Part shown: positions 1 to 12,654 of the stretch, piece by piece | How positions within the stretch are numbered: the first letter of the stretch is position 1 | How the letters are laid out: each line of letters begins with the position of its first letter | Assembly (NCBI RefSeq): GCF_016482825.1 | Contig: NZ_JAEMNV010000007.1 | Coordinates: 1 to 64,000, forward strand | Direction of reading: 5' to 3' | DNA: 64,000 nt | DNA from: Antrihabitans stalagmiti | Lineage (GTDB): Bacteria > Actinomycetota > Actinomycetes > Mycobacteriales > Mycobacteriaceae | The notes under the pieces: generated by a model | Databases searched by the model: none | Told to the model about the DNA's origin: nothing | The model's input: only the letters and a program-made list of their open reading frames with translations | Translations under genes and position numbers: made by a program

Positions 1-116
1 AACGGGCAACCAGAAGACCACCCGACACGACGCGCCGGGTGGTCCCATAACTGGCAATCCAGGTGGTCCCATGCACCTGGCAGAAATCAGCTCACAGCGG
101 TCCCATGCTCATGGCA
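1..116. mobile_element. Terminal repeats of an IS21-like element (element lies to the left)
   Basis: Three related units sit at 38-56, 62-82 and 97-116. Each has the form G(G/C)-(T)GGTCCCAT followed a few bases later by TGGCA, and the last ends in CA. Read inwards from 116, the end begins TGCCATGAGCATGGGACC, which has the same layout as the left end of the second element in this window (TGACAGGTTTGGTTGGCCCC). IS21-family ends typically carry several such transposase-binding repeats and terminate in TG...CA. A 9-bp inverted repeat (16-24 with 36-44) lies within it. No transposase gene of this element is visible here. Confidence 0.55.
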
Positions 117-2221
117 GACGACAGAGGTAGATCGATAGTGCGCAACTCTTCAAGCTCGTCTAGGCTCGCATCCAGTTGATCGGTCGAAAAATCGAAGCTA
201 TCCTTTCGAGCGAAACGTGCAGAGATCTCCGACCGCAGCATTGCACGCGCGAGCAGATAGAACACGCGCGCATCCTCGGGTACATCAGACCAGTCGGCGA
301 CTTGTCCAGCAAGATTGGCAATCACGGATTCGCCATGTTGACAAGCGATCTCCATTGGCAGTTTGTCGCCGCGGGTCCGCGCATAGGCCGCCCATCCGTA
401 GAGATCAAACATCAATTCGCATCCGATTCCCACGATCGCCCATGGCGGAGCATCACGTAGGTATCGCAGACGAACAATGTCGTTGACGACTCGCGGAACG
501 GTCACGGTATCGACTATCCAATTGCGGGCTGTTCTTTCACCGCTGACTACGTTCCGTTCGACGAGCGTTTGTGTTCGCAACGCAGTGACAATTCCGTTTA
601 CTATTTCGCTGTCAGCGATTGCCGGTTCTGGCACTTTCGCCAGGTCAAGCTGAACAAGTTCTCGCATAGCAGTGGGCACCAGCATATTTAGCGGAATGTC
701 CGCGTGATTCATGAACGACGCCATGTTCATAAAGTGGCGTGCTGGCCTACTCCATCTCGGACTAACAATGCCGAGATCCGCGTTTAGCTTCCTGATCGCG
801 AGCGCAACCGATGCTGCGATCGTGCGGTCGAGTTCCGGTGGAGCAGAGATTTCGTCCTCAAGGGCTGCCAACGACTTGAAGTAGTCGGACGCCAACGATT
901 CGAAACTGTCACCGCTGTTTCTAAAGTATAACCCTGCCATGGCGACCGCCATTGGCATTCTGCCGAGTTTCTCGACGATATCAGCTATTGTATGCCTGAT
1001 TCCTTTTGCGTCGCCGGCAGAAATTCCGGCGTAATGTGCAAAGCAATTAATAGCCTGTTCGCTTGCGAACGGGCCAATTCGCCGAACCTCTCCAAGCGCA
1101 GTCCAACGTGTACTATTCGGCGTGGTCACAACGACTACGCCGGTTCCCGTAGTTGGCATCAAAGACTTTATTGTCGAGGGCGTGTCAACTCCGTCAAAGA
1201 CAAGGATCCATGGCCCAGCTGACGCCGATAGCGTTCGATTGAACGTGGAATATAACTCGTCTCGACTAGCGTACGAATCGGTTTGATTCATATCGCGCAG
1301 TATGTCAGTTACTGTGGCGTCTATCTTGCGCTGGTTCGCGCAGTCGATCCAGTACACCGTTTCGTAGAAATTCCTGCTCGAATGACAAAAGTCAGACGCG
1401 AGGACCGACTTTCCCATCCCGGTAGTCCCCGCGAGAATAGCGAGCTGAGGGGTGCGGCCTTCGTTGCACTTTCCGAGCAACCCCGAGAGGTAGTCCAACT
1501 CGTCCTCGCGCGGAAACGGTGACGGCCTATACGGCACGGACGTCGCCGCATTTCCCCAATCAAACTCGCCACCAACATGCGCAAGTTCGTGATCGCTGAC
1601 ATGCATTACGGCAATCAGCTCTAAGGCCGAAATCTCCTGCTTTTCGAGCCCAGATCCAGCTCTAAATACGAGGTCAAGCATCGACGCTAATATATACCGA
1701 GCAGATGACTGACCGAGCCCCAAGTGGCGATCGCCCCGAAATTGTACGATCATGCCAAGGATTGAATCCCGTATTTCGTTGAGCGATCTCTTGTCTATCG
1801 TTATCGTGGCGTTGACTCGCGGAACAAACGCGTAAGTACTTACTTCGCCCGACTTTTCGATGAGTTTACACTCGTCTTCCACCGTCGATGCCATTGCCCT
1901 GTTGGTAAGGAATCGTTGAGGTACTGCACCGACCTCTGAAGTCATATCGTCGAAAACAGTGGTTGTGGGCGGTAGATAGATCTTGGCCGTCGGGTCGATT
2001 GACGCCTTTACCTGGACAGCTTCCACGAGGAGGTCGGCAATGGTAGTCGAAAAGTCAACCTTGTCCTTGTCACTTGTCGACACCGAGCTTGTTTCTACGA
2101 AGAACCTGATTCCCGACAACTCGCTTAGATTTGCCCGCATGTATTCGAGAAAGTATTCGATTGTCGCCAGGTACTGATAGTGATATCCGAATGCTGAAAC
2201 AACACCGCCCCCGTAAGCCAT
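92..2221 (-). CDS. Nuclease-like plus STAND NTPase protein, probable antiphage sensor, 3' end replaced by IS end
   Basis: This 709-residue protein probably has an N-terminal nuclease domain fused to a STAND/NB-ARC NTPase. Residues 12-17 read GYHYQY. They are followed by E43, D56 and an E67-x-x-Q70-x-K72 core (EAVQVK), the layout of DUF4297/Cap4-type and other PD-(D/E)xK nucleases. Residues 265-272 (GTTGMGKS) are a Walker A loop, and 338-346 (WILVFDGVD) fit Walker B. The C-terminal part is helical and unassigned. Nuclease-STAND fusions are known in antiphage families such as Avs. The last codons (MSMGPL) are encoded by the IS21-like terminal repeat, so the natural C-terminal sensor region may be missing. 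No partner gene is adjacent. Function is inferred; the NTPase call is firm and the nuclease call moderate. Confidence 0.7.
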   Translation of the reverse strand: MAYGGGVVSAFGYHYQYLATIEYFLEYMRANLSELSGIRFFVETSSVSTSDKDKVDFSTTIADLLVEAVQVKASIDPTAKIYLPPTTTVFDDMTSEVGAVPQRFLTNRAMASTVEDECKLIEKSGEVSTYAFVPRVNATITIDKRSLNEIRDSILGMIVQFRGDRHLGLGQSSARYILASMLDLVFRAGSGLEKQEISALELIAVMHVSDHELAHVGGEFDWGNAATSVPYRPSPFPREDELDYLSGLLGKCNEGRTPQLAILAGTTGMGKSVLASDFCHSSRNFYETVYWIDCANQRKIDATVTDILRDMNQTDSYASRDELYSTFNRTLSASAGPWILVFDGVDTPSTIKSLMPTTGTGVVVVTTPNSTRWTALGEVRRIGPFASEQAINCFAHYAGISAGDAKGIRHTIADIVEKLGRMPMAVAMAGLYFRNSGDSFESLASDYFKSLAALEDEISAPPELDRTIAASVALAIRKLNADLGIVSPRWSRPARHFMNMASFMNHADIPLNMLVPTAMRELVQLDLAKVPEPAIADSEIVNGIVTALRTQTLVERNVVSGERTARNWIVDTVTVPRVVNDIVRLRYLRDAPPWAIVGIGCELMFDLYGWAAYARTRGDKLPMEIACQHGESVIANLAGQVADWSDVPEDARVFYLLARAMLRSEISARFARKDSFDFSTDQLDASLDELEELRTIDLPLSSAMSMGPL

Positions 2222-2793: not shown

Positions 2794-2893
2794 TGACAGG
2801 TTTGGTTGGCCCCACTTGATGCAGGATTCGCAAGTTTGAGTGGCCCCATCTGCGACTCGCCGGGCAGCTTCTGTCAGGTTTGAGTGGCCCCAC
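2794..2893. repeat. IS21 left-end multiple terminal repeats
   Basis: Three copies of a motif close to CA(G/A)GTTTG(A/G)(G/T)TGGCCCCA lie at 2794-2815, 2830-2849 and 2872-2893. In IS21-family elements such repeats are transposase-binding sites. The third copy abuts the istA leader. Confidence 0.7.
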
Positions 2894-2931
2894 CTGAAGG
2901 TTCGTCACATCGACGACTTTCAGGAGGAGAT

Positions 2932-4599
2932 GTGAGGTCCAAGATCATGCTGTTCGAGCAGATCCGACGGGATTCCCGGGTGGAGGGTCTGTCGGTGCGG
3001 GCATTGGCCAAACGGCACCAGGTGCACCGACGAACGGTTCGGCAGGCGCTGGCGTCGGCGACACCACCGGAATCCGTCAGGCGCCGTTGGCAATCGAAGA
3101 AGATCGACCCGTTCGTCGAGGCAATCGACGCCATGTTGCGGTCGGATCTGACCGCCCCCAAGAAACAGCGTCACACGACCGTGCGGATCCTGGCCCGCCT
3201 CGTCGCCGAACATGACGCGACCGACCTGTCGTATTCGACCGTGCGCAGTTATGTCAACGAGCGGCGACAAGAGATCTGGGCCGAGATCGGCCGACCACTG
3301 ACGGAAGTGTTCATCGCCCAAACCCATCAACCCGGTGCCGAAGCCGAGGTCGACTTCGCCGAACTCTGGGTCGACCTGCCGAATGGTCGGACGAAGTGTT
3401 ACCTATTCACGATGCGGTTGTGCTTCAGCGGCCGCGCCGTCCACCGGGTGTACCCGACCCAGTCTCAGGAAGCGTTCCTGGAGGGTCATATCGCCGCGTT
3501 CGCCGAGCTGGGTGGTGTCCCGACCATGCATATCAAATACGACAATTTGAAGTCCGCGGTCACCCAGGTGCTCTTCGGCACCGATCGACGCAGAACGGAG
3601 AACGAACGCTGGGTGCTGTTTCGCTCGCACTACGGCTTCGATCCGTTCTACTGCATACCGGGCATCGAGGGTGCCCATGAAAAGGGTGGCGTCGAGGGTG
3701 AGGGCGGACGCTTCCGCCGCAACCATCTCGTGCCAGTGCCGAAGGTGAAATCGTTGGCGGAGTTGAACATTCGACTCGCCAAGGCAGACCGGGCCGATGA
3801 CCATCGCCGCATCAGTGGTCGGCTCGCGACTGTCGGGGACATGTTCGGCATCGAACGACTCGTGCTGCGACCGTTGCCGACAGAGATGTTCGAGCCAGGT
3901 CTGTTGTTGAACCCCCGGGTGGATCGACACGCGCGGGTCATGGTCCGCAACTGCCAGTACTCGGTCCCCGCCAAGTTCATCGGACGGCGAGTGCGGGTGC
4001 ATCTGCGGGCCGGGGAAGTGATCGTCCTGCACGGCCGCAACGTGATCGCCAGCCATGAGCGATCCAACGGCAAAGGCGCCCAAATTCTGGACTTGGATCA
4101 CTATCTGGAAGTGCTGAAGTACAAACCCGGAGCACTGCCGGGGGCAACCGCGCTGGTCCAAGCTCGCGCTGGCGGCGCGTTCACCCCAGCACACGACGCG
4201 TTCTGGGCCGCAGCTCGCAAAACCCACGGTGACGCCGCCGGCACCCGAGAACTCATAGACGTGTTGCTACTGCACCGACACATGGCCGCCGCCGATGTCA
4301 TTGCCGGACTGACCGCAGCCCTGAGCAGCGGGGCCACCTCGGCCGACGTCGTCGCTGTCGAAGCCCGCAAACAACACCCTGGGGCCAGCCAAACCGCACA
4401 TCCCGTCGATCACGGTGGGGCGCTCAAGCACACCGTTGTCAGTATTACCCAGCGGCGACTGGCCGATCCGACTGCGGTGATCGCGGGGTTGCCCCCGGAC
4501 ACTCGAGCACTCCCGTCGGTCGCCCAGTACGACGAGCTGCTCAGCCGCCGCAACACCGGATCCGATGCATCCGACAGCGTGAAAGGGAATGTGTCATGA
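2932..4599 (+). CDS. istA: IS21-family transposase IstA
   Basis: IstA is the DDE recombinase of IS21 elements. The N-terminus has a helix-turn-helix (SVRALAKRHQVHRRTVRQAL). A catalytic core follows, with an Asp in the EAEVDFAELW segment, a second Asp in KYDNLKSAV and the Glu in HEKGGVEGEGG. A C-terminal beta domain (VRNCQYSVPAKF) comes next. GTG at 2932 is preferred because AGGAGG lies 4 bases upstream. The frame is open back to 2884, but that extension is encoded by the IS end repeat. The protein is about 555 residues, full length for the family. istB overlaps its stop by 4 bases (ATGA), as usual. The transposase looks intact. Confidence 0.92.
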   Translation: MRSKIMLFEQIRRDSRVEGLSVRALAKRHQVHRRTVRQALASATPPESVRRRWQSKKIDPFVEAIDAMLRSDLTAPKKQRHTTVRILARLVAEHDATDLSYSTVRSYVNERRQEIWAEIGRPLTEVFIAQTHQPGAEAEVDFAELWVDLPNGRTKCYLFTMRLCFSGRAVHRVYPTQSQEAFLEGHIAAFAELGGVPTMHIKYDNLKSAVTQVLFGTDRRRTENERWVLFRSHYGFDPFYCIPGIEGAHEKGGVEGEGGRFRRNHLVPVPKVKSLAELNIRLAKADRADDHRRISGRLATVGDMFGIERLVLRPLPTEMFEPGLLLNPRVDRHARVMVRNCQYSVPAKFIGRRVRVHLRAGEVIVLHGRNVIASHERSNGKGAQILDLDHYLEVLKYKPGALPGATALVQARAGGAFTPAHDAFWAAARKTHGDAAGTRELIDVLLLHRHMAAADVIAGLTAALSSGATSADVVAVEARKQHPGASQTAHPVDHGGALKHTVVSITQRRLADPTAVIAGLPPDTRALPSVAQYDELLSRRNTGSDASDSVKGNVS

Positions 4600-5386
4600 G
4601 CCAACCACGACGTCGCCGAGGGCTGACCGAGCAAGCCGCCGCCGCGGCGATCGACACCGCGTGCCGGCAACTCCGGTTGCCGACCGTCCGCGGCCTGGTC
4701 ACCGACATGGCCGTCGTCGCAGAAAAGGAACAACTCACCTACCAAGGATTCCTCGCCGAACTACTGCTGGGCGAATGCGACGACCGAGCTCGCCGCCGAT
4801 CCGTCCGACGCGTCAAAGCCGCCGGGTTTCCCCGCGACAAGTGGCTGGCCGACTTCGATTTCGACGCGAACCCGAACATCAACCCGGCCACGATCCACAC
4901 CCTGGCCGACTGCGGCTGGATCCGCGCCGGGCAACCCCTGTGCCTGATCGGTGACTCCGGCACCGGCAAAAGCCATCTACTCATCGGGCTCGGAACCGCG
5001 GCCGCGGAGAACGGTTTCCGGGTCAAATACACACTTGCCACCAAACTCGTCAACGAACTCGTCGAAGCGGCCGACGAGAAGATCCTCGCCAAGACCATCG
5101 CCCGCTACGGGCGGGTGGATCTGTTGTGCATCGACGAACTTGGGTACATGGAGACAAACGCGGGGCCGAGTTGCTGTTCCAAGTGTTGACCGAGCGGGAG
5201 GAAAAGAATTCGGTCGCGATCGCGTCCAACGACAGTTTCTCGGGCTGGACGAAGACCTTCACCGATGCCCGACTCTGCGCCGCCATCGTGGATCGACTCA
5301 CGTTCGGCGGCAACATCATCGAGACCGGCACGGACAGCTATCGACTCGCGCATACGAAAGCCCACCAGGCAATCGGGTCGCGGTAA
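4596..5386 (+). pseudogene. istB: IS21 helper ATPase IstB, frameshifted
   Basis: IstB is the AAA+ ATPase that assists IstA in target capture. The first frame (4596-5189) carries the N-terminal domain, Walker A (GDSGTGKSH) and Walker B (LLCIDELGYM). It then derails at about 5153. The remaining family sequence (DKRGAELLFQVL and onward to about 5386) continues in another reading frame that is open from 5126. Comparison with the usual ELGYMELDKRGAELL pattern suggests a loss of 4 bases after GAG at 5151-5153. Unless this is a sequencing error, the element lacks a working helper and would need one in trans. Confidence 0.85.
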
Positions 5387-5398
5387 ACCACGATCCGA

Positions 5399-6286
5399 TC
5401 AGTTGTGCCGCCACACCTTGACCGCGGAGAGCAGCAAAAGCAACACCAGCAACGGAATCAGGACCGCGCTCGCGACAGCGCCGAGCAGCAACCCACCCAC
5501 CACGGTGCCCACGATCGACCCGGCCGACATCGCGACCACGAAACGCCCGTTCGCACGGAGCACCCCGAAGCTCTGATCTTGGCTGTAGCGGGCGAACGCC
5601 ACCAGCATCGTCGGTAGCGACACCGCCAGCGACAAGCTTCCCGCGATCTTGATGTCCACCGCGTACAGCAACACGATCGTCGGGATGAGCAATTCGCCAC
5701 CGGCCACCCCCATCAGTGCCGCGACGACCCCGATCCCGAAACCAGCAATCAACCCCGCGACGGCGCGAGTCACCGGCCCGAGTTCCAGCGAACCGAGGTG
5801 GCCGAAGTGGCTGACCGACAACGCGATTGCGATGAGTACCAGCAGCAGCGCCAGCGTTTTGTACAACGTTGCCGAGCGCATCTTGGTCGCCCAGGTGGCC
5901 CCGGCCCACGCACCGAGCAGACTGCCACCGAGCAGGTTCACCACGATCGACCAGTGCGGAGCAAGTTCGGCGTACGGGACCGCGGCAAGGCGGGCAGGCA
6001 ACGCAGTGATGACCACGATCAGGCTCATCGCCTTGTTGAGGATCACGGCCTGCAACGCAACGAAACCGAACAACCCGATCAATAGCGGCAGTCGAAACTC
6101 CGCACCCCCGAGACCGATCATCCCGCCGAGCACACCGATGACCGAGCCAGAAAAGAACGCCACCGGCAGCGACCGACTCAATCCGCGGATCGGACCCACT
6201 TCGCCCGAGGTGGGCACCCCCGCGACGCCAGTGGGGCTATTCGGAGAATCGCTGTTCACGCGGGCCACCTTACGGCGACAAACCAC
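5399..6286 (-). CDS. TauE/SafE (TSUP/DUF81) family membrane permease
   Basis: This is a TSUP-family anion exporter or permease of about 295 residues with some eight hydrophobic segments. It has the two internal repeats typical of the family: GVLGGMIGLGGAEFRLPLL near residue 52 and GVVAALMGVAGGELLIPTI near residue 175. Family members are linked to export of sulfite, sulfoacetate or other organosulfur anions; the substrate here cannot be told. Several GTG codons near the N-terminus (6286, 6268, 6259) make the start uncertain. It lies between istB and the right terminal repeats, on the opposite strand, so it appears to be a passenger of the IS21 element. Confidence 0.85.
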   Translation of the reverse strand: MVCRRKVARVNSDSPNSPTGVAGVPTSGEVGPIRGLSRSLPVAFFSGSVIGVLGGMIGLGGAEFRLPLLIGLFGFVALQAVILNKAMSLIVVITALPARLAAVPYAELAPHWSIVVNLLGGSLLGAWAGATWATKMRSATLYKTLALLLVLIAIALSVSHFGHLGSLELGPVTRAVAGLIAGFGIGVVAALMGVAGGELLIPTIVLLYAVDIKIAGSLSLAVSLPTMLVAFARYSQDQSFGVLRANGRFVVAMSAGSIVGTVVGGLLLGAVASAVLIPLLVLLLLLSAVKVWRHN

Positions 6287-6337
6287 CAGTTCCGCTAACC
6301 GCTACTACCGCTCGACATCGCAAACATCACCACCGTG

Positions 6338-6383
6338 GTGGGGCCAACCAAATCTGACGGACCGGGGCCACGCAAACTTGACA
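6338..6383. repeat. IS21 right-end terminal repeats
   Basis: Two inverted copies of the left-end motif occur: GTGGGGCCAACCAAATCTGAC (6338-6358; the motif is split here for reading, GTGGGGCCAAC plus CAAATCTGAC) and CCGGGGCCACGCAAACTTGA plus CA (6362-6383). The outermost base pair set is CA, complementary to the TG at the left end. Confidence 0.7.
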
Positions 6384-6654
6384 GACCCAAACAGCGGTAT
6401 GACTTGTGCGAGGCGTTCTCAATGCACCTGGTGGACGAGTGCACGGACAGTGTTCTGACCCACCGCACTTTCACGGGAGAAGGCAATATCACTGCGGTGC
6501 GAGCTTGGTGACGCCCACAGCCCTGCGGAGAGGCTCGTCTCGAATTCGACTCCGAGCCGCGTGACGTGGGCCGGATCACATAGATCGACGCATTCTGCAC
6601 GAATTCTGCACGCGGCGGGATGGCGCTACTTGTAAGTAGCTCTGAACTGCACAA

Positions 6655-6888: not shown

Positions 6889-8040
6889 TCAGAGAAGATT
6901 CGGTTTATACGGCGTCAGTGTGTTCTTGGTGGCTTCGATTCGCTGGTAGACACTCGAATGAATCTGGTCGCCAGGCAAGACGGTGCGTCGCTTCCAACCG
7001 CCAGCAGCGACCCATATTCGGCCGTTGCGATGCAAGACGCCGAGAGCCCGATCGTGGGGCAGGAGATTGCCGTGCCCGATATCGAGCAGCGGGCGATACC
7101 GGTTCGTGCTAATACGCAGACCTGCCGTCTCCGCCTCGACCGCCATCCAGTGGAAGGCCACGTCGGAGAGCCTGTGGTCGTCCTCGTATTGGCCACCCAC
7201 GTCACTGTGAATGCCCGCGAACCAGACCTCCTGGTGAAGCCCGTTCGAGGCTGCTACTACCTCGGGGTTAAGTCGATAGACCGGGAATGGTCGGCGGCGC
7301 TCGTCGAGTGCCATCGCGTGCCGAACGATCGCAACGTTGTCTAGAGTTCGTGTCGACGGCCATTGGTACTGCTCAAACTTGCCGCGCACGTTCATAGATC
7401 CGGCCGAGCGGACGGTGTCCCAGATACCCATGAACTCGACCTGATTGATGCCTCTAACAAACACACTTGGAAAATCCGGATTGCCGAATCGACGCTCAAA
7501 ATCACGCCGCAGTTTCCAGTACCCCTTGCGCTCGGCGGCAGCGTTGGCTTCACGCGCGACGAGGTGGTCGGCGCCTTGGGGTCGGTCTCCGCTCTTAGCG
7601 TATAACTTCACGGCATACGGCACTAGATTCTGCGAACCCGACCGCAAGAGTCCTACCGTGCGCAGCATCCCGCTCAGAGCCCGAGCCGTGTAGGCGCCGC
7701 GCGAGAATCCGAAGATGTAGATGCTGTCGCCACAGCGGTAGTTCTCCATCAAGAAGATGTAGGCCTCTTCGATGTTTTCCTTGATTCCGTACCCAGCGAT
7801 GAAGCCGTACGCTCGGCTAGTCGCTTTGCCGAGTCGGGTAAACGCGCTGCGTGCTCCCATCGTCCCCACACCCGGATCGTAGTAGACAAGTTGATCAGCG
7901 GTCTTGCTCGCGAGTTCATAGATCCGGCCGACGTTCGTCGAGCCGGCCTCGGGTTCGTTGCTCGTACCGTCGAGACAGACGACAAGATTGCGTTGTGTCG
8001 AACCCGGGTTCTCCTCGTTCACACGCTCATCATGCGCCAT
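6889..8040 (-). CDS. DUF2235 alpha/beta hydrolase (Tle1-like lipase fold)
   Basis: DUF2235 proteins are alpha/beta hydrolases. Characterised relatives include type VI secretion phospholipase effectors (Tle1). Visible hallmarks are the LVVCLDGTSNE strand-loop near the N-terminus and the nucleophile elbow GFSRGAYTAR (Ser about residue 113). Downstream HSDVGG and DIGHG-type segments could supply acid and histidine. There is no signal peptide, so it is probably cytoplasmic. ATG at 8040 lies 4 bases after the upstream CHAT stop; an alternative TTG at 8055 would overlap that gene. It is the third gene of an MBL-CHAT-DUF2235 operon, where it could be the membrane-attacking effector (inference). Confidence 0.85.
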   Translation of the reverse strand: MAHDERVNEENPGSTQRNLVVCLDGTSNEPEAGSTNVGRIYELASKTADQLVYYDPGVGTMGARSAFTRLGKATSRAYGFIAGYGIKENIEEAYIFLMENYRCGDSIYIFGFSRGAYTARALSGMLRTVGLLRSGSQNLVPYAVKLYAKSGDRPQGADHLVAREANAAAERKGYWKLRRDFERRFGNPDFPSVFVRGINQVEFMGIWDTVRSAGSMNVRGKFEQYQWPSTRTLDNVAIVRHAMALDERRRPFPVYRLNPEVVAASNGLHQEVWFAGIHSDVGGQYEDDHRLSDVAFHWMAVEAETAGLRISTNRYRPLLDIGHGNLLPHDRALGVLHRNGRIWVAAGGWKRRTVLPGDQIHSSVYQRIEATKNTLTPYKPNLL

Positions 8041-8044
8041 CGGT

Positions 8045-11000
8045 TCATCCCACAACCATGAATGGCGCCCAGTAGCGCTCAGCGTCGCCAGACAAAGGCT
8101 GTGGGATCACTTCGTCGTCGCGGAGCTCAGGCGGCAGATTGAGGCCGCGGCGCCTTTTGGTGCCCTCGGACGCCGGAGTGCCACCAAGCTTGTGGTACGC
8201 GACGTGCATGTCGTCGGGCGTGAGCGTGAATATTGCGCGCTGCGCAGTTGCTAGCGCCGAGGCCGGCGGTGTCCCGACTGCGAGCTCCTGATAGAAGCGG
8301 TACATCACTATCGGCGCGACCTCGTCGTCCACCGGCCAGAGCGACACCACAGCTTGTGAGACCCCCGAGCGCAGCAGCGATCGGGTCAATCCGATGACGT
8401 CACCACCGAGCGTGGCCTCCCCGCGCCCGGTATCGCAGCCGGACAGAACAGCAAGGTCGGTGCCGAATCTTAGGCCCGCAATGTCTGCGACGCTCAGATC
8501 GCCCTGGCCGGCAAGTACCAGTGACGACGCGAACGGAGACAACTCGTCGAGATGTCCGTGGGTCGAGAGATGAAGTATGTTGCACGCTTCGAGGCGAGCG
8601 GTCACGGCCGCTTTGGTTGCCTCTGCGCCGAGGAGTATGTCGCTAGCTTCCAGCAGAGCGCCGATGGCGGCAGCCTCGACCTGCGCCCCGGGTAAGCGGT
8701 TCAGATCTGGGCGTAAGGTCGCGTCGAATTCGGGATCGCCGACGATCAGCGGGCGCGCTGTCGACACCCCCACATCGGGTCGGTACGCCTCAGCGCGTGG
8801 CAAGTACGACACAACATGGGTCAGCATCAACGGCAGGCCGTCGAGCCGAAGCGCGTGGAATGGCACTGCGGTGAGCGCTCCGAACGGCACTATAACTAAC
8901 CGGTTATGGGTTCGCAAAAGATCCTCGACCGGATTGACAAGCAACAACGACAACGCCGTGTTCGATGCCCGCCCAGCTGTGCACGTGATCTGGAAGTCGC
9001 GAACGAGCACTGCGAGCTCATTCGATCTGAGCTCTCGAACAATCGGCCTCAGCACATCCCTGGTCACTGCCCACATCAGTAGGTCGTCGCCGACCGCGAG
9101 ATATTCCAGGAGCAGCGTGCCTTCCGCAAGCATGTCCTGGATATCGGCGGCCCCTCGCAGGTGCCCGGGGGCAGAGCGCCTCAGTAGGAGGCCAGGGCTC
9201 GCTGCGTCAACAGCTCGCTCCGCTGCAGCGAGATCGGCATCGGCCGCATCCAACTTCGCGAAAAGGCCGGCGGTGCGGTCCGGTGCAGCGGTGGGCAGCT
9301 GGTCAACGATCGTGTTGGAAATCGCCGAATATTGGGCCGCGGCTCTCTGCCACCACTGACTAATCACAGGATTGACCTGGATCAGTGTGTCGAACGAGAA
9401 CGACCGGGCGCGCTCGGCAGAATTGAATGATCCGTCCACGTCACCCTTCGCTAGCTGCACCATTGCTAGAGTCGCGTAGAGCTTCGCGACATCGGGCTGA
9501 TCGCAGGCATCGAGGCGGTCCGGATCCCTCAACAGCAGTCTCGCCTCGGCCTCGAACATCGCGATTGCTGCGCTCACCGCGGCCTTTGCGTCGTTCACGT
9601 TCCCGCGCTCCAGGTCGATCCCGGCCCTCATTAGTGGGTCGCGCCATTCGGTCCAGGCAGTGGCCCGGTCCAGCGCGGCGTGCGCGCGCTCGAATGCCTT
9701 CGCACGGACGTAGAGCGTTGCGGCGGCTTGGTCCGAAATCTTGCCAGAATCGTGGGCTGCATCCAGTGCCTCGCGAGCCTCGTCGAGCCGTTGCGCCGAC
9801 ACCAACGCGAGTGGCAACAGATGCGGCACTGCCCCAGGTCGTAGAGAGGCGTCGATGGCACGTGCGAACCACGCCCGGGCCTCGTCGGCGCGACCTGTTC
9901 GCTGTGCGTGTTCGCCCCTTGCAATTTGAGCGATGACATCGATCATGACGACCATTTCCCGGGCGCTATTGAGGTACATGCGCTGAATCATCGTAATCAT
10001 GATTTCGGCGGCGGCAGCTTGAGATTCAATCGACCCGTCCCCAGCAAGCGCCGCGAATGTGCCTACTATTTCGGACTCAGTCGCGAGATGCGGGTCAGCG
10101 ACCGGTGGCAACACAGATTGCCTCGCCGTAATTTCAGCCACGAGCTGGTCCCTGATCAGATCGAGACGTGTGGCAGCGTGGGCAGCATGCGGGCCGAGGG
10201 TGTGGTCCCGGAGCGCTGCGATCATTACTGCGGCCGCCTCAAGCTTCTGGGGGAACGCGAAAAGTTCGGAGTCCGGAGTAGCGAGACTACGGCCGAACTC
10301 GCGTTCAAGCCTGATAAGGGCACTGGTCGTGAGGTTAAGCCGCATGTCGGCGCGGGCAACAGCTGTGACCAAACTCTGCGACGGGACGGACCGGTTGACG
10401 CGGACAAGCTGTAGCGCGGTGAGATGGCCAATGCGTGCCCGACTCGCCGTCCCGTTTGTGTTCCATACGTCGGCGCAGCGTTCGAGTAATCGGCCGAGTC
10501 CGACACACCATGAGGCGCTGCCAACTGAGGTAGACCAACCGATCAAGTCGGCGATCGGGCCGTGTTCGGGGCGATGCCATCCTCCGCCCAGATCGAGCGC
10601 GTGCTGTTCCAGACGACCATCATCTATGTCGGCGACCAATTCGTGAATCGCGGTCATCCGTTGCATCGCAGCGTCGTCAGCCGTCACATATTCCACGTGC
10701 GCGTCTGCGAGTGCGGTTCGGACAGCATCACGATCGCCCCTGGTCCTTGCCAGCGAAGCAGTGCGGATTGCGAGCGCGCCGCGCAACCAGGGCGCGTCAA
10801 TCGCACCGAGCGTGGACGCTGCCTGGTCGTAACACGCAACGGCGTGACCGTCATCCACCGGGAACGGGCTCGGACCCTGCTGTGGCGCGAGTGCGACTCC
10901 GAGCGATTCAGGCGCCGCGCCAGGTGTGCACCACCAGTCGCCTTCGACGAGGTAAGTCAGGGCCAGCTGACCGGCATCGCCTTCGCAATGATGACGAGCA

Positions 11001-11572
11001 ACTGCGAGTAGGTTCGGCGCGTTCGGCATGCCCGCATGATGAGCGAGATCGGCGCCAGCGATCCTTGCCCAAACTGCGAGCGCTGGCTGGCGGAGCCGGG
11101 ATGCCGTGGCGGTGAGATTCTCCAGATTCTGCATGCCCTTATTAAGTGCCTGCTCGACGCCCAGCGTCGCGCCTCCACGTACGGATGTCTCCAACATGCT
11201 CCGCAGCGTCAGTAGGCCGGGCGGTCCCCAGGCCACGACGCCTTCAAGAAGCTCCGTCGGAGACTCACCGGTCGACGGCACAACAAATGCGTCGAGAAGC
11301 AATTCACCCTCCGCGCCGACACCGCCGGGGTACCAGTTGCGGTCAAGTAACTGTGCCCAAACTGTCAGCGACTGAATAATCCTCGCGCAACGACCGGAGA
11401 CTTCGCCACTCTCGATGTCACTGAGCAATTTAAGGCAGCGGCGGGGTTCCCCTGCCGTGAGAGCGGCCAGGCACGCGTCATAAATAGCTCCCTCGACGAG
11501 CGTGCTGAAGAACGACGAACCCGACGCAGGCTGTAGGACCACGCTGATCCATGAGTCGAGGGGAGTCGTCAT
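8045..11572 (-). CDS. Large helical-repeat protein with C-terminal CHAT (caspase-like) protease domain
   Basis: The protein is about 1,175 residues. The first 750 or so are Ala-rich helical repeats, TPR-like in places. The last 350 form a CHAT domain: LVIVPFGALTAVPFHAL, the histidine motif LSTHGH (His about 1005) and the cysteine motif VLSGCDTGRGE (Cys about 1046), then AVVSLWPVDD. Both catalytic residues are present, so a cysteine protease is expected. The start is placed at 11572 because its ATG overlaps the MBL-gene stop (ATGA); the longer frame to 11701 runs inside the MBL gene. CHAT proteases act as activatable executioners in several bacterial conflict systems. The target here is unknown; the downstream hydrolase is one possibility. 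Confidence 0.88.
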   Translation of the reverse strand: MTTPLDSWISVVLQPASGSSFFSTLVEGAIYDACLAALTAGEPRRCLKLLSDIESGEVSGRCARIIQSLTVWAQLLDRNWYPGGVGAEGELLLDAFVVPSTGESPTELLEGVVAWGPPGLLTLRSMLETSVRGGATLGVEQALNKGMQNLENLTATASRLRQPALAVWARIAGADLAHHAGMPNAPNLLAVARHHCEGDAGQLALTYLVEGDWWCTPGAAPESLGVALAPQQGPSPFPVDDGHAVACYDQAASTLGAIDAPWLRGALAIRTASLARTRGDRDAVRTALADAHVEYVTADDAAMQRMTAIHELVADIDDGRLEQHALDLGGGWHRPEHGPIADLIGWSTSVGSASWCVGLGRLLERCADVWNTNGTASRARIGHLTALQLVRVNRSVPSQSLVTAVARADMRLNLTTSALIRLEREFGRSLATPDSELFAFPQKLEAAAVMIAALRDHTLGPHAAHAATRLDLIRDQLVAEITARQSVLPPVADPHLATESEIVGTFAALAGDGSIESQAAAAEIMITMIQRMYLNSAREMVVMIDVIAQIARGEHAQRTGRADEARAWFARAIDASLRPGAVPHLLPLALVSAQRLDEAREALDAAHDSGKISDQAAATLYVRAKAFERAHAALDRATAWTEWRDPLMRAGIDLERGNVNDAKAAVSAAIAMFEAEARLLLRDPDRLDACDQPDVAKLYATLAMVQLAKGDVDGSFNSAERARSFSFDTLIQVNPVISQWWQRAAAQYSAISNTIVDQLPTAAPDRTAGLFAKLDAADADLAAAERAVDAASPGLLLRRSAPGHLRGAADIQDMLAEGTLLLEYLAVGDDLLMWAVTRDVLRPIVRELRSNELAVLVRDFQITCTAGRASNTALSLLLVNPVEDLLRTHNRLVIVPFGALTAVPFHALRLDGLPLMLTHVVSYLPRAEAYRPDVGVSTARPLIVGDPEFDATLRPDLNRLPGAQVEAAAIGALLEASDILLGAEATKAAVTARLEACNILHLSTHGHLDELSPFASSLVLAGQGDLSVADIAGLRFGTDLAVLSGCDTGRGEATLGGDVIGLTRSLLRSGVSQAVVSLWPVDDEVAPIVMYRFYQELAVGTPPASALATAQRAIFTLTPDDMHVAYHKLGGTPASEGTKRRRGLNLPPELRDDEVIPQPLSGDAERYWAPFMVVG

Positions 11573-12654
11573 TGCCGGGCTGGGAGTTCGAGGATAATGC
11601 CTTTGGCCGGTTCGTCTGGATACCGTGCCGCATAGCCGAACTGCGCTGTCAGTTTGGGATCGGTCCAACGTGCTGTGCGAGGGGTGCGATAGTTGAACCA
11701 TAACGTCGCTCCCTGGCGCGCGCTGACGACTGTACGAGCGATCGCCACGTCGTCGGGGTGGTGAAAGATGTCGCCATTTGTTGAGACGAGATAGTGCCGC
11801 GCCGGCGCGACGGCGAGCATCGGCGCGATGACATTTCCTTTGCTGCCGTGGTGTGGGAGCTTAAAGGCGTCAACCGCCAGCTCGTCGAGGCCTCGTGACT
11901 GGGCGACACCGAGTAGCGCAGCGCCGATGACTGTGCCGAATCCGTCGCCTGCGAGGACAACGCTAGCGCCTCTGTGCTCGATTAGCAGAGCAATGCTGCT
12001 GCCGTTCGGAGCAGACGAATCGCCGACAGACTTTGACGACGCGATCGCCTCAAGATCACTAAGAGGCTGCAAGACATCTGGCTCGGCGGCCCTCGTCGGG
12101 CCGCGAGTAGCTGCATCGACGGCCTCCCGCCATTTGGCTCCGAGGATTGCCAGGCGCTTCGTTGTCGGCGAAAGGACGGTGATGCGCGGTCCGTTCGCCG
12201 TTTGAACCTCGACAAAACCAGCCTCTTCGCCGGTATCGATGGGCAGTCCGCAGAATGCGCGGTTCCACGGGAGCACAACGTTGTTGGTGTCGCCGCGCAG
12301 ATCCGCTGTCAGAGATTCGCCCTGCGCGACGCTACGCGTGACTCCGCTCCCTGGCAGATGAACGCGCCCGTTAAACCAATAGTCTCCGACCTGCTCATGC
12401 GCGAACTTGCTATTGGCGAATGGCAAAAATCCGCCGATATGGTCCGCGTCGATGTGAGTCACCACCGCGACATCTATCCTATTGTCGTCCGTTGGAAATC
12501 GGTTTAATCGCGCTTCCAACCTTGGCCACGTATCCACCGGACCGCCATCGACGAGCATGCGCCACGTCCGGCCACCGTCGTGAGACGGACACTCGACGAG
12601 CAGACAGTCGCCTTGGCGCGCTGGCAGGACCTCAAGTCGAATGGCAGGTGTCAT
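11569..12654 (-). CDS. Metallo-beta-lactamase-fold protein, ComEC/Rec2 type
   Basis: This 361-residue MBL-fold hydrolase has the metal motif THIDADHIGG (His67, Asp69, Asp71, His72) and the later ligands AGDGFG, LPHHGSKGN and HHPDD. The layout resembles the hydrolase domain of ComEC/Rec2 without its membrane channel, so a soluble nuclease or phosphodiesterase is plausible. There is no signal peptide or transmembrane segment. It is the first gene of the three-gene operon and overlaps the CHAT gene by 4 bases, implying coupled translation and a shared role. Stand-alone MBL proteins of this type are recurrent partners of CHAT proteases in predicted conflict loci. Family call firm, role inferred. 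Confidence 0.88.
   Translation of the reverse strand: MTPAIRLEVLPARQGDCLLVECPSHDGGRTWRMLVDGGPVDTWPRLEARLNRFPTDDNRIDVAVVTHIDADHIGGFLPFANSKFAHEQVGDYWFNGRVHLPGSGVTRSVAQGESLTADLRGDTNNVVLPWNRAFCGLPIDTGEEAGFVEVQTANGPRITVLSPTTKRLAILGAKWREAVDAATRGPTRAAEPDVLQPLSDLEAIASSKSVGDSSAPNGSSIALLIEHRGASVVLAGDGFGTVIGAALLGVAQSRGLDELAVDAFKLPHHGSKGNVIAPMLAVAPARHYLVSTNGDIFHHPDDVAIARTVVSARQGATLWFNYRTPRTARWTDPKLTAQFGYAARYPDEPAKGIILELPARQ

Follow-up and report, generated by a model that had tools for sequence, protein, structure and literature searches.

The window, by which we mean the whole 64-kb stretch analysed here, consists of bases 1-64000 of contig C42 in a 6.39-Mb, 44-contig genome, and the contig starts at window base 1. 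The ORF list of the window contains, near this end, a minus-strand frame coding for 709 amino acids and closing with ...LSSAMSMGPL (Table 1). The stop codon (92-94) and the last nine codons of this frame lie inside the left tip of an insertion sequence (IS), the edge of which can be placed at base 123 exactly: bases 1-123 recur as the last bases of the 697,257-base contig C34 (E = 1.4e-58, far beyond chance), and C42 and C34 are 100% identical over these bases and differ from base 124 on. It had been claimed, in an earlier note made on this DNA, that the 3′ end of the ORF is built from an IS21-like terminal repeat, which is indeed what we find. The unit concerned was given there as the third, at 97-116; the tail does fall inside a terminal repeat, but the unit is the outermost one, at 99-118. 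Because the tip closes the reading frame within 13 codons in all three phases, the nine-residue tail is an accident of phase. The IS probably also caused the assembly break at C42 base 1.

Table 1. Coordinates of the truncated gene, of the insertion sequence that breaks it and of a putatively split relative (window positions unless stated otherwise)
Feature	Position	Strand	Remarks
Left (istA-side) end of IS21-family element	1..123	-	Tip at base 123, inward TGTCGTCTGCC...
Body of gene-breaking IS	Left of window base 1, off contig C42		istA lies just inside the matching end in plasmid copy L043
Third terminal repeat core	41..48	-
Second terminal repeat unit	65..84	-	Core 65-72
Outermost terminal repeat unit	99..118	-	Core ATGGGACC 99-106; encodes most of the protein's last residues
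Truncated STAND nuclease ORF, 709 aa	92..2221	-	Residues 1-699 native
IS-derived tail of the 709-aa ORF			Residues 701-709 and stop; residue 700 straddles the junction
Target-site duplication	124..129	.	GAGGTA on +, TACCTC on gene strand; second copy at C17:124-129 beside IS right tip
Remaining proximal C-terminal helical (TPR-like) array (predicted)	125..493	-	Residues about 577-699
NB-ARC/STAND NTPase domain (predicted)	872..1510	-	Residues about 238-450; Walker A GTTGMGKS, Walker B ILVFDG
Cap4/LmuA-type nuclease domain (predicted)	1574..2215	-	Residues about 3-216
Pieces of the putatively split G136 relative	L066 (G136:C8) 1-1325; L067 (G136:C12) 1-2550

The tips of IS21-family elements read 5′-TG...CA-3′, and their target duplications measure 4-8 bp. 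Both tips of the gene-breaking IS, left TGTCGTC and right ...ATGACA, are exact from the divergence of its two copies in the genome and fit this pattern, and the target duplications of the two copies (6 bp, TACCTC, and 7 bp, GTTTGCG) fit the short duplication of the family, for which 5 bp is named in PMC10122671. The element has the multi-unit ends by which the IS21 family is recognized, with three ATGGGACC units at the left and two at the right; counted inward from the tip, the left cores lie at positions 18, 52 and 76, and the repeats at 65-84 and 99-118 are 90% alike. That the ends of IS21 elements carry multiple repeats is stated in PMC11208146 as well. For ISMyo2, an IS21-family element of Mycobacterium yongonense, PMC4608216 gives three left and two right repeats with the ATGGGACC core around istA-istB; the gene-breaking IS is alike in number and core of these repeats, a likeness that covers the end repeats alone.

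A plasmid search with the left end returned 26 matching records; among the 20 matches listed, 18 end at query position 123-127 and two at 104 and 116. In one of these copies, on a plasmid of Rhodococcus sp. 2G (L043), istA begins just inside the left end and is followed by istB; this related element is 2662 bp long, its left end is 87% identical to that of the gene-breaking IS and both genes are in the expected place. The shared 123-bp end, the plasmid copies and the position of istA in L043 together identify window 1-123 as the left end of an element of the IS21 family. When the assembly was searched for the interior of this element, with 40 of 153 first-look candidates scored, only an 82% relative on contig C10 came up; a collapsed two-copy repeat would presumably leave such a gap. 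C10 also carries a related left end, 83% identical to window 1-123. This third left end of the IS group (L003 1501-3060; 83-86% similar) seems to be interrupted by another element, with istA-like sequence resuming about 1.5 kb further on.

The window itself holds a second, different IS21-type element (2794-6390), with GGCCCCA left repeats at 2808/2842/2886, istA at 2884-4599, an istB broken at 5189 and continued in another frame at 5126-5386, and right-type repeats near 6339-6385. Its IstA shares only 26% identity over 257 residues with the IstA of the relative of the gene-breaking IS. Like a passenger gene, a minus-strand ORF of 295 amino acids (5399-6286) is placed with the broken istB on one side and the right-end repeats on the other; it looks, by eye only, like a TauE/SafE-type exporter.

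The related plasmid element, used as query on the own genome, led to the right tip of the IS and from there to the remainder of the gene on contig C17. Four contig ends carry tips of the IS, left ones on C42 and C34, right ones on C9 and C17, the latter two being common for exactly 123 bp. Only the C42/C17 pairing gives the 6-bp duplication and only the C34/C9 pairing the 7-bp one; neither of the two cross pairings yields a target duplication. Beyond the tip, C17:129-809 contains the missing 226 codons, or about the final quarter of the protein, in the phase of the gene, with a stop at 807-809 and no internal stop. The G+C content of the two gene halves is 0.531 and 0.535, against 0.629 for the window and 0.593 for the rest of C17. 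With 699 native residues and these 226, the unbroken protein would have had about 925 residues, a figure obtained by adding up two halves that lie apart. The edges of the IS, the target duplications and the in-phase remainder were all observed. They bear out the view that an IS landed in the gene, and the remainder was met where the earlier note had proposed to look for it, beyond the element.

The likeness of the C17 piece to homologues of the protein is weak (12.8 bits against a profile of six homologues), and its placement is collinear, the window protein occupying profile positions 2-697 and the C17 piece positions 704-867. The stop-to-stop frame that includes this piece ranks first against 581 ORFs, from six stretches of the own genome, and 1000 shuffles, by the small margin of 11.4 bits versus 7.9 for the best shuffle. 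Pairwise BLAST of the piece against the homologues gave nothing significant (best E = 0.23), and searches of the own genome with homologue C-termini missed it, returning first nothing and then one irrelevant match (E = 0.58). As each half of the gene was found once in the genome, there is no intact copy in the assembly. The junction between C42 and C17 is one that we infer, rather than read from a single contig, because the interior of the IS was not found in the assembly. That same absence, and the start of C42 inside the IS, could raise the suspicion that the IS copy belongs elsewhere and that the C42 end is a mis-join. Such an artefact is extremely unlikely, given that the tip sequence at each of four contig ends measures exactly 123 bp, that the two duplications fit only one pairing and that the remainder on C17 agrees with the gene in phase and G+C. 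Another possibility is that the two copies recombined after the insertion, so that C42 is now joined via the IS to C9 instead of C17. Recombination can take place between two copies that share a genome and have identical tips, and the contigs are compatible with it, but nothing speaks positively for such an exchange, which we consider very unlikely; the target duplications show the original arrangement only, and the break in the gene would be no different. Downstream of the severed half, C17 (L054 1298-7388) carries HD, NUDIX, DUF5919, DUF2637 and HTH_36 genes, a set that resembles an integrative element. Inspection by eye showed that the HTH_36 gene has a close paralogue next to the other IS copy, where C34 ends.

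Homologues were sought in 401 genomes of the family, 397 of the order and 394 of the class, in plasmids and in GTDB species contigs, the latter by means of only two peptide patterns (43 stretches, 5 relatives); matches in the order and class genomes were listed at E<=1e-30 only. After removal of duplicates (G243 was taken as L038 and G283 as L041), 12 relatives remained at this threshold, two of which (L037 and L041) are cut by contig ends. The other 10 are complete and all have at least 910 residues: the close homologues L044, L038, L040, L039 and L005 have 910, 917, 918, 919 and 919 (L039 and L040, with open frames of 1016 and 993, were counted from the start in keeping with the other homologues), and five distant relatives have open frames of 998-1253. 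Five of the 12 (G703, G462, G813, G821 and G989) match over the nuclease-NTPase part and not over the full length. Alignment to full-length homologues, which had been suggested as a check, thus gives complete proteins of 910-919 residues (close) or 998-1253 residues (distant), and none of the 10 complete relatives at E<=1e-30 in the family, order and class genomes, GTDB contigs and plasmids ends near 709 residues. Homologues of the same length and end point with no adjacent IS, the finding that would have spoken against a truncation according to the earlier note, are absent among the 12. This count leaves out 37 weaker matches in the family genomes (E from 9e-22 to 5e-4), which are mostly NTPase-only; their open frames range from 262 to 1263 residues, those between 660 and 740 including 668, 672, 677, 689, 690, 706 and 738.

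The relatives that can be named belong to Mycobacterium, Mycolicibacterium, Nocardia and a Rhodococcus MAG. A search of three genus-mates did not turn up the gene, viral contigs contained no relative, and the C-terminal half had no match in plasmids and, the own genome aside, five weak ones in the 401 family genomes (best E = 0.003). Because of this patchiness and the low G+C content, the gene looks accessory and horizontally acquired. On a Mycolicibacterium arabiense plasmid (L044, region 10538-12539), the homologue lies near genes annotated as Pycsar effector and adenylate/guanylate cyclase, and in the vicinity of the L039 homologue there is a gene that has a type I restriction R N-terminal domain. 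On the minus strand of the window (6889-11701), a gene for a Tle1-like (DUF2235-type) phospholipase fold and the end of a CHAT-protease gene (1218 aa) overlap; a CHAT protein is also encoded near the L038 homologue, with significant similarity to that of the window in the CHAT region only.

Fold and profile matches support a domain make-up of Cap4/LmuA/Avs3-type nuclease, NB-ARC STAND NTPase and TPR-like array, on structure models of moderate confidence (mean pLDDT 61.6 for the truncated protein and 69.0 for the L038 homologue). For the predicted nuclease, the window model matches (VIA-align) LmuA (9ux7_C; Z 14.2, rmsd 3.7, 174 aligned), Cap4 (6vm6_C; Z 13.0, rmsd 3.4 over 170), HamA of Hachiman (8zue_A; Z 11.6) and Avs3 (8dgc_A; Z 11.8, with a poor whole-length rmsd of 20.6), and the L038 model matches Cap4 (6wan_F; Z 12.8). 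Residues D56 and Q70-V-K72, which we take to be the catalytic D...QxK motif, are invariant in all six aligned sequences. A Pfam scan of the window protein gave no nuclease match, a PDB search with its single sequence gave one chance-level match, and Foldseek on the window model ranked plant NLRs first, with Cap4 and LmuA absent among the best 50 matches listed. The NTPase reaches 27.2 bits against Pfam NB-ARC (cut-off 23.5) in the window protein. In the L038 model it resembles the plant NRC3 resistosome (Z 18.1) and Apaf-1 (Z 17.7); in the window model it fits badly, with NLR matches up to Z 9.5 at an rmsd of about 15. The nuclease-like and NTPase domains that had been proposed for the N-terminal part are, therefore, both supported by these fold and profile matches.

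Residues 580-914 of the L038 model form a helical array that matches the LGN TPR structure (4wne_A; Z 13.0); with helical repeats, such a match is no more than suggestive. From residue 580 on, 16 helices are listed, 11 of them beyond the truncation point near residue 697 (10 of 15 when helix 767-771, of only five residues, is not counted). Besides nuclease and NTPase, the truncated product is accordingly predicted to keep roughly the proximal third of the array. Of the idea that its C-terminal sensor region was cut off, the loss of the distal array stands, while five of the 16 helices would stay, as transferred from the L038 model. In all 15 homologue pairs, conservation is lower in the distal array than in the NB-ARC domain; between L037 and L039, for example, identity is 83% in the nuclease, 83% in NB-ARC and 44% in the distal array (162 residues, L037 being cut). 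Such fast divergence fits a recognition surface.

Among known defence systems, Avs3/AVAST is like the full-length form of the gene in having an N-terminal Cap4-type nuclease, a central STAND NTPase and a C-terminal helical array. In PMC12198126, which cites Gao et al. 2022, recognition of a phage protein by Avs3 is described as making the STAND domain gather the N-terminal nuclease domains. Of the features of Avs-like proteins, the gene has the STAND NTPase with Walker A and B and, judging from the fold, the N-terminal Cap4-type nuclease effector; a C-terminal helical-repeat sensor is present in the homologue model and not in the 709-aa product, which we do not class as a working Avs-like member because its distal array is cut off. 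The Avs3 chain has 2028 residues, compared with about 920 in the close full-length relatives of the gene, and the NTPase of the gene, unlike that of Avs3, is nearest to NB-ARC/Apaf-1/plant NLR. LmuA of Lamassu is encoded with an SMC-like partner, LmuB, and Cap4 of CBASS has its nuclease together with a SAVED domain; the nuclease fold is common to both and to the gene product, in which it is instead fused to a STAND NTPase and a TPR-like array. PADLOC scores for LmuA are weak (E = 0.0042 for the window protein, three window proteins having been scanned), with two of the six aligned family members matching, at best at 3.7e-5. The TPR protein of the FxSxx-COOH system (NF040586) is of the same NTPase lineage and matches all six members (best E = 1.8e-36); its cut-off is 300 bits against 126 reached by L038, and the gene family carries a nuclease domain, unlike NF040586. 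The AfsR chains 8jke and 8k60 also share this NTPase lineage (E about 2.5e-5). We did not recognize the protein family as described in the literature (open-licence papers only). The gene is a previously unremarked member of the known Cap4-nuclease STAND kind.

By analogy, the full-length protein was probably an antiphage NLR-like sensor-effector. As in Avs3, it may have sensed phage via the distal helical array, and it would then have oligomerized through the NTPase and fired the nuclease. An IS21-family element with ISMyo2-like ends would have transposed into codon 700 with a target duplication of 6 bp; the resulting product, 709 residues long, has nine IS-encoded ones at its end, and 226 codons lie intact behind the element, on C17. 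A product that has no distal array presumably could not be triggered. We consider it very probable that the insertion split, at codon 700, the gene of a STAND nuclease of about 925 residues, probably antiphage, and made it a loss-of-function allele. The insertion seems fairly recent, because the tips are identical over 123 bp each, the duplications are perfect and the severed frame has acquired no stop.

The earlier note had envisaged a product either constitutively active or dead. In Apaf-1 that lacks its WD40 domain the NTPase is no longer held off, and in the truncated protein, too, loss of the distal sensor could release the NTPase so that the nuclease fires with no phage present; the nuclease and NTPase motifs are intact and most of the sensor array is gone. 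But the array was removed in part only, and an unregulated Cap4-type nuclease with an intact site should be toxic, even lethal, yet the strain carries the gene. For the latter reason loss of function is the most likely outcome and a dead product much likelier than a constitutively active one, which we hold to be very improbable. One could also argue that the 709-residue protein still works, its need for the distal array being altered or nil, since the ORF is open and keeps both domains. This is very improbable, as no complete homologue at E<=1e-30 is that short and the part lost is the one that diverges fastest, as expected of a recognition surface. A last possibility, which we judge highly improbable, is that the insertion created a split receptor, in which a separate sensor fragment of about 245 residues joins up again with the fragment that holds nuclease and NTPase. 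On C17 the frame stays open across the right tip of the IS (GTG at C17:72), and istA-istB, going by the layout of the related element, would be co-directional with the gene, so that transcripts driven by the IS might yield the sensor fragment; if this were true, the IS would be a hinge allowing sensor exchange.

Loss of function by IS insertion may have struck a relative as well. The weaker matches of 262 and 738 residues in genome G136 are two pieces of apparently one gene, with the nuclease at the start of contig C8 (profile positions 5-241) and the NTPase at the start of C12 (positions 269-522), without overlap. The N-terminal half of a transposase (HTH_38) lies beside the C8 piece and an integrase-core half (rve) beside the C12 piece, each contig beginning inside such a half; this is a pair of domains that we take to indicate an IS30-type element; transposase halves and gene pieces are all co-directional, and similar tips, with 18 of 21 bases alike, are found near C8:536 and C12:490. 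An IS30-type element thus seems to have separated the nuclease from the NTPase in this distant relative, with a putative C8-C12 junction.

Insertion sequences are known to inactivate costly accessory genes, and the event at the start of the window is an ordinary IS21 inactivation of a defence-type gene. That a distant relative is apparently split by a different IS hints at repeated loss of such genes in this way. The allele described here is most likely a clean natural knockout, with a break that falls within the distal sensor array and spares both nuclease and NTPase, and the truncated protein, paired with a full-length homologue, would offer a convenient test of whether the distal array is needed for holding off the nuclease or for triggering it.
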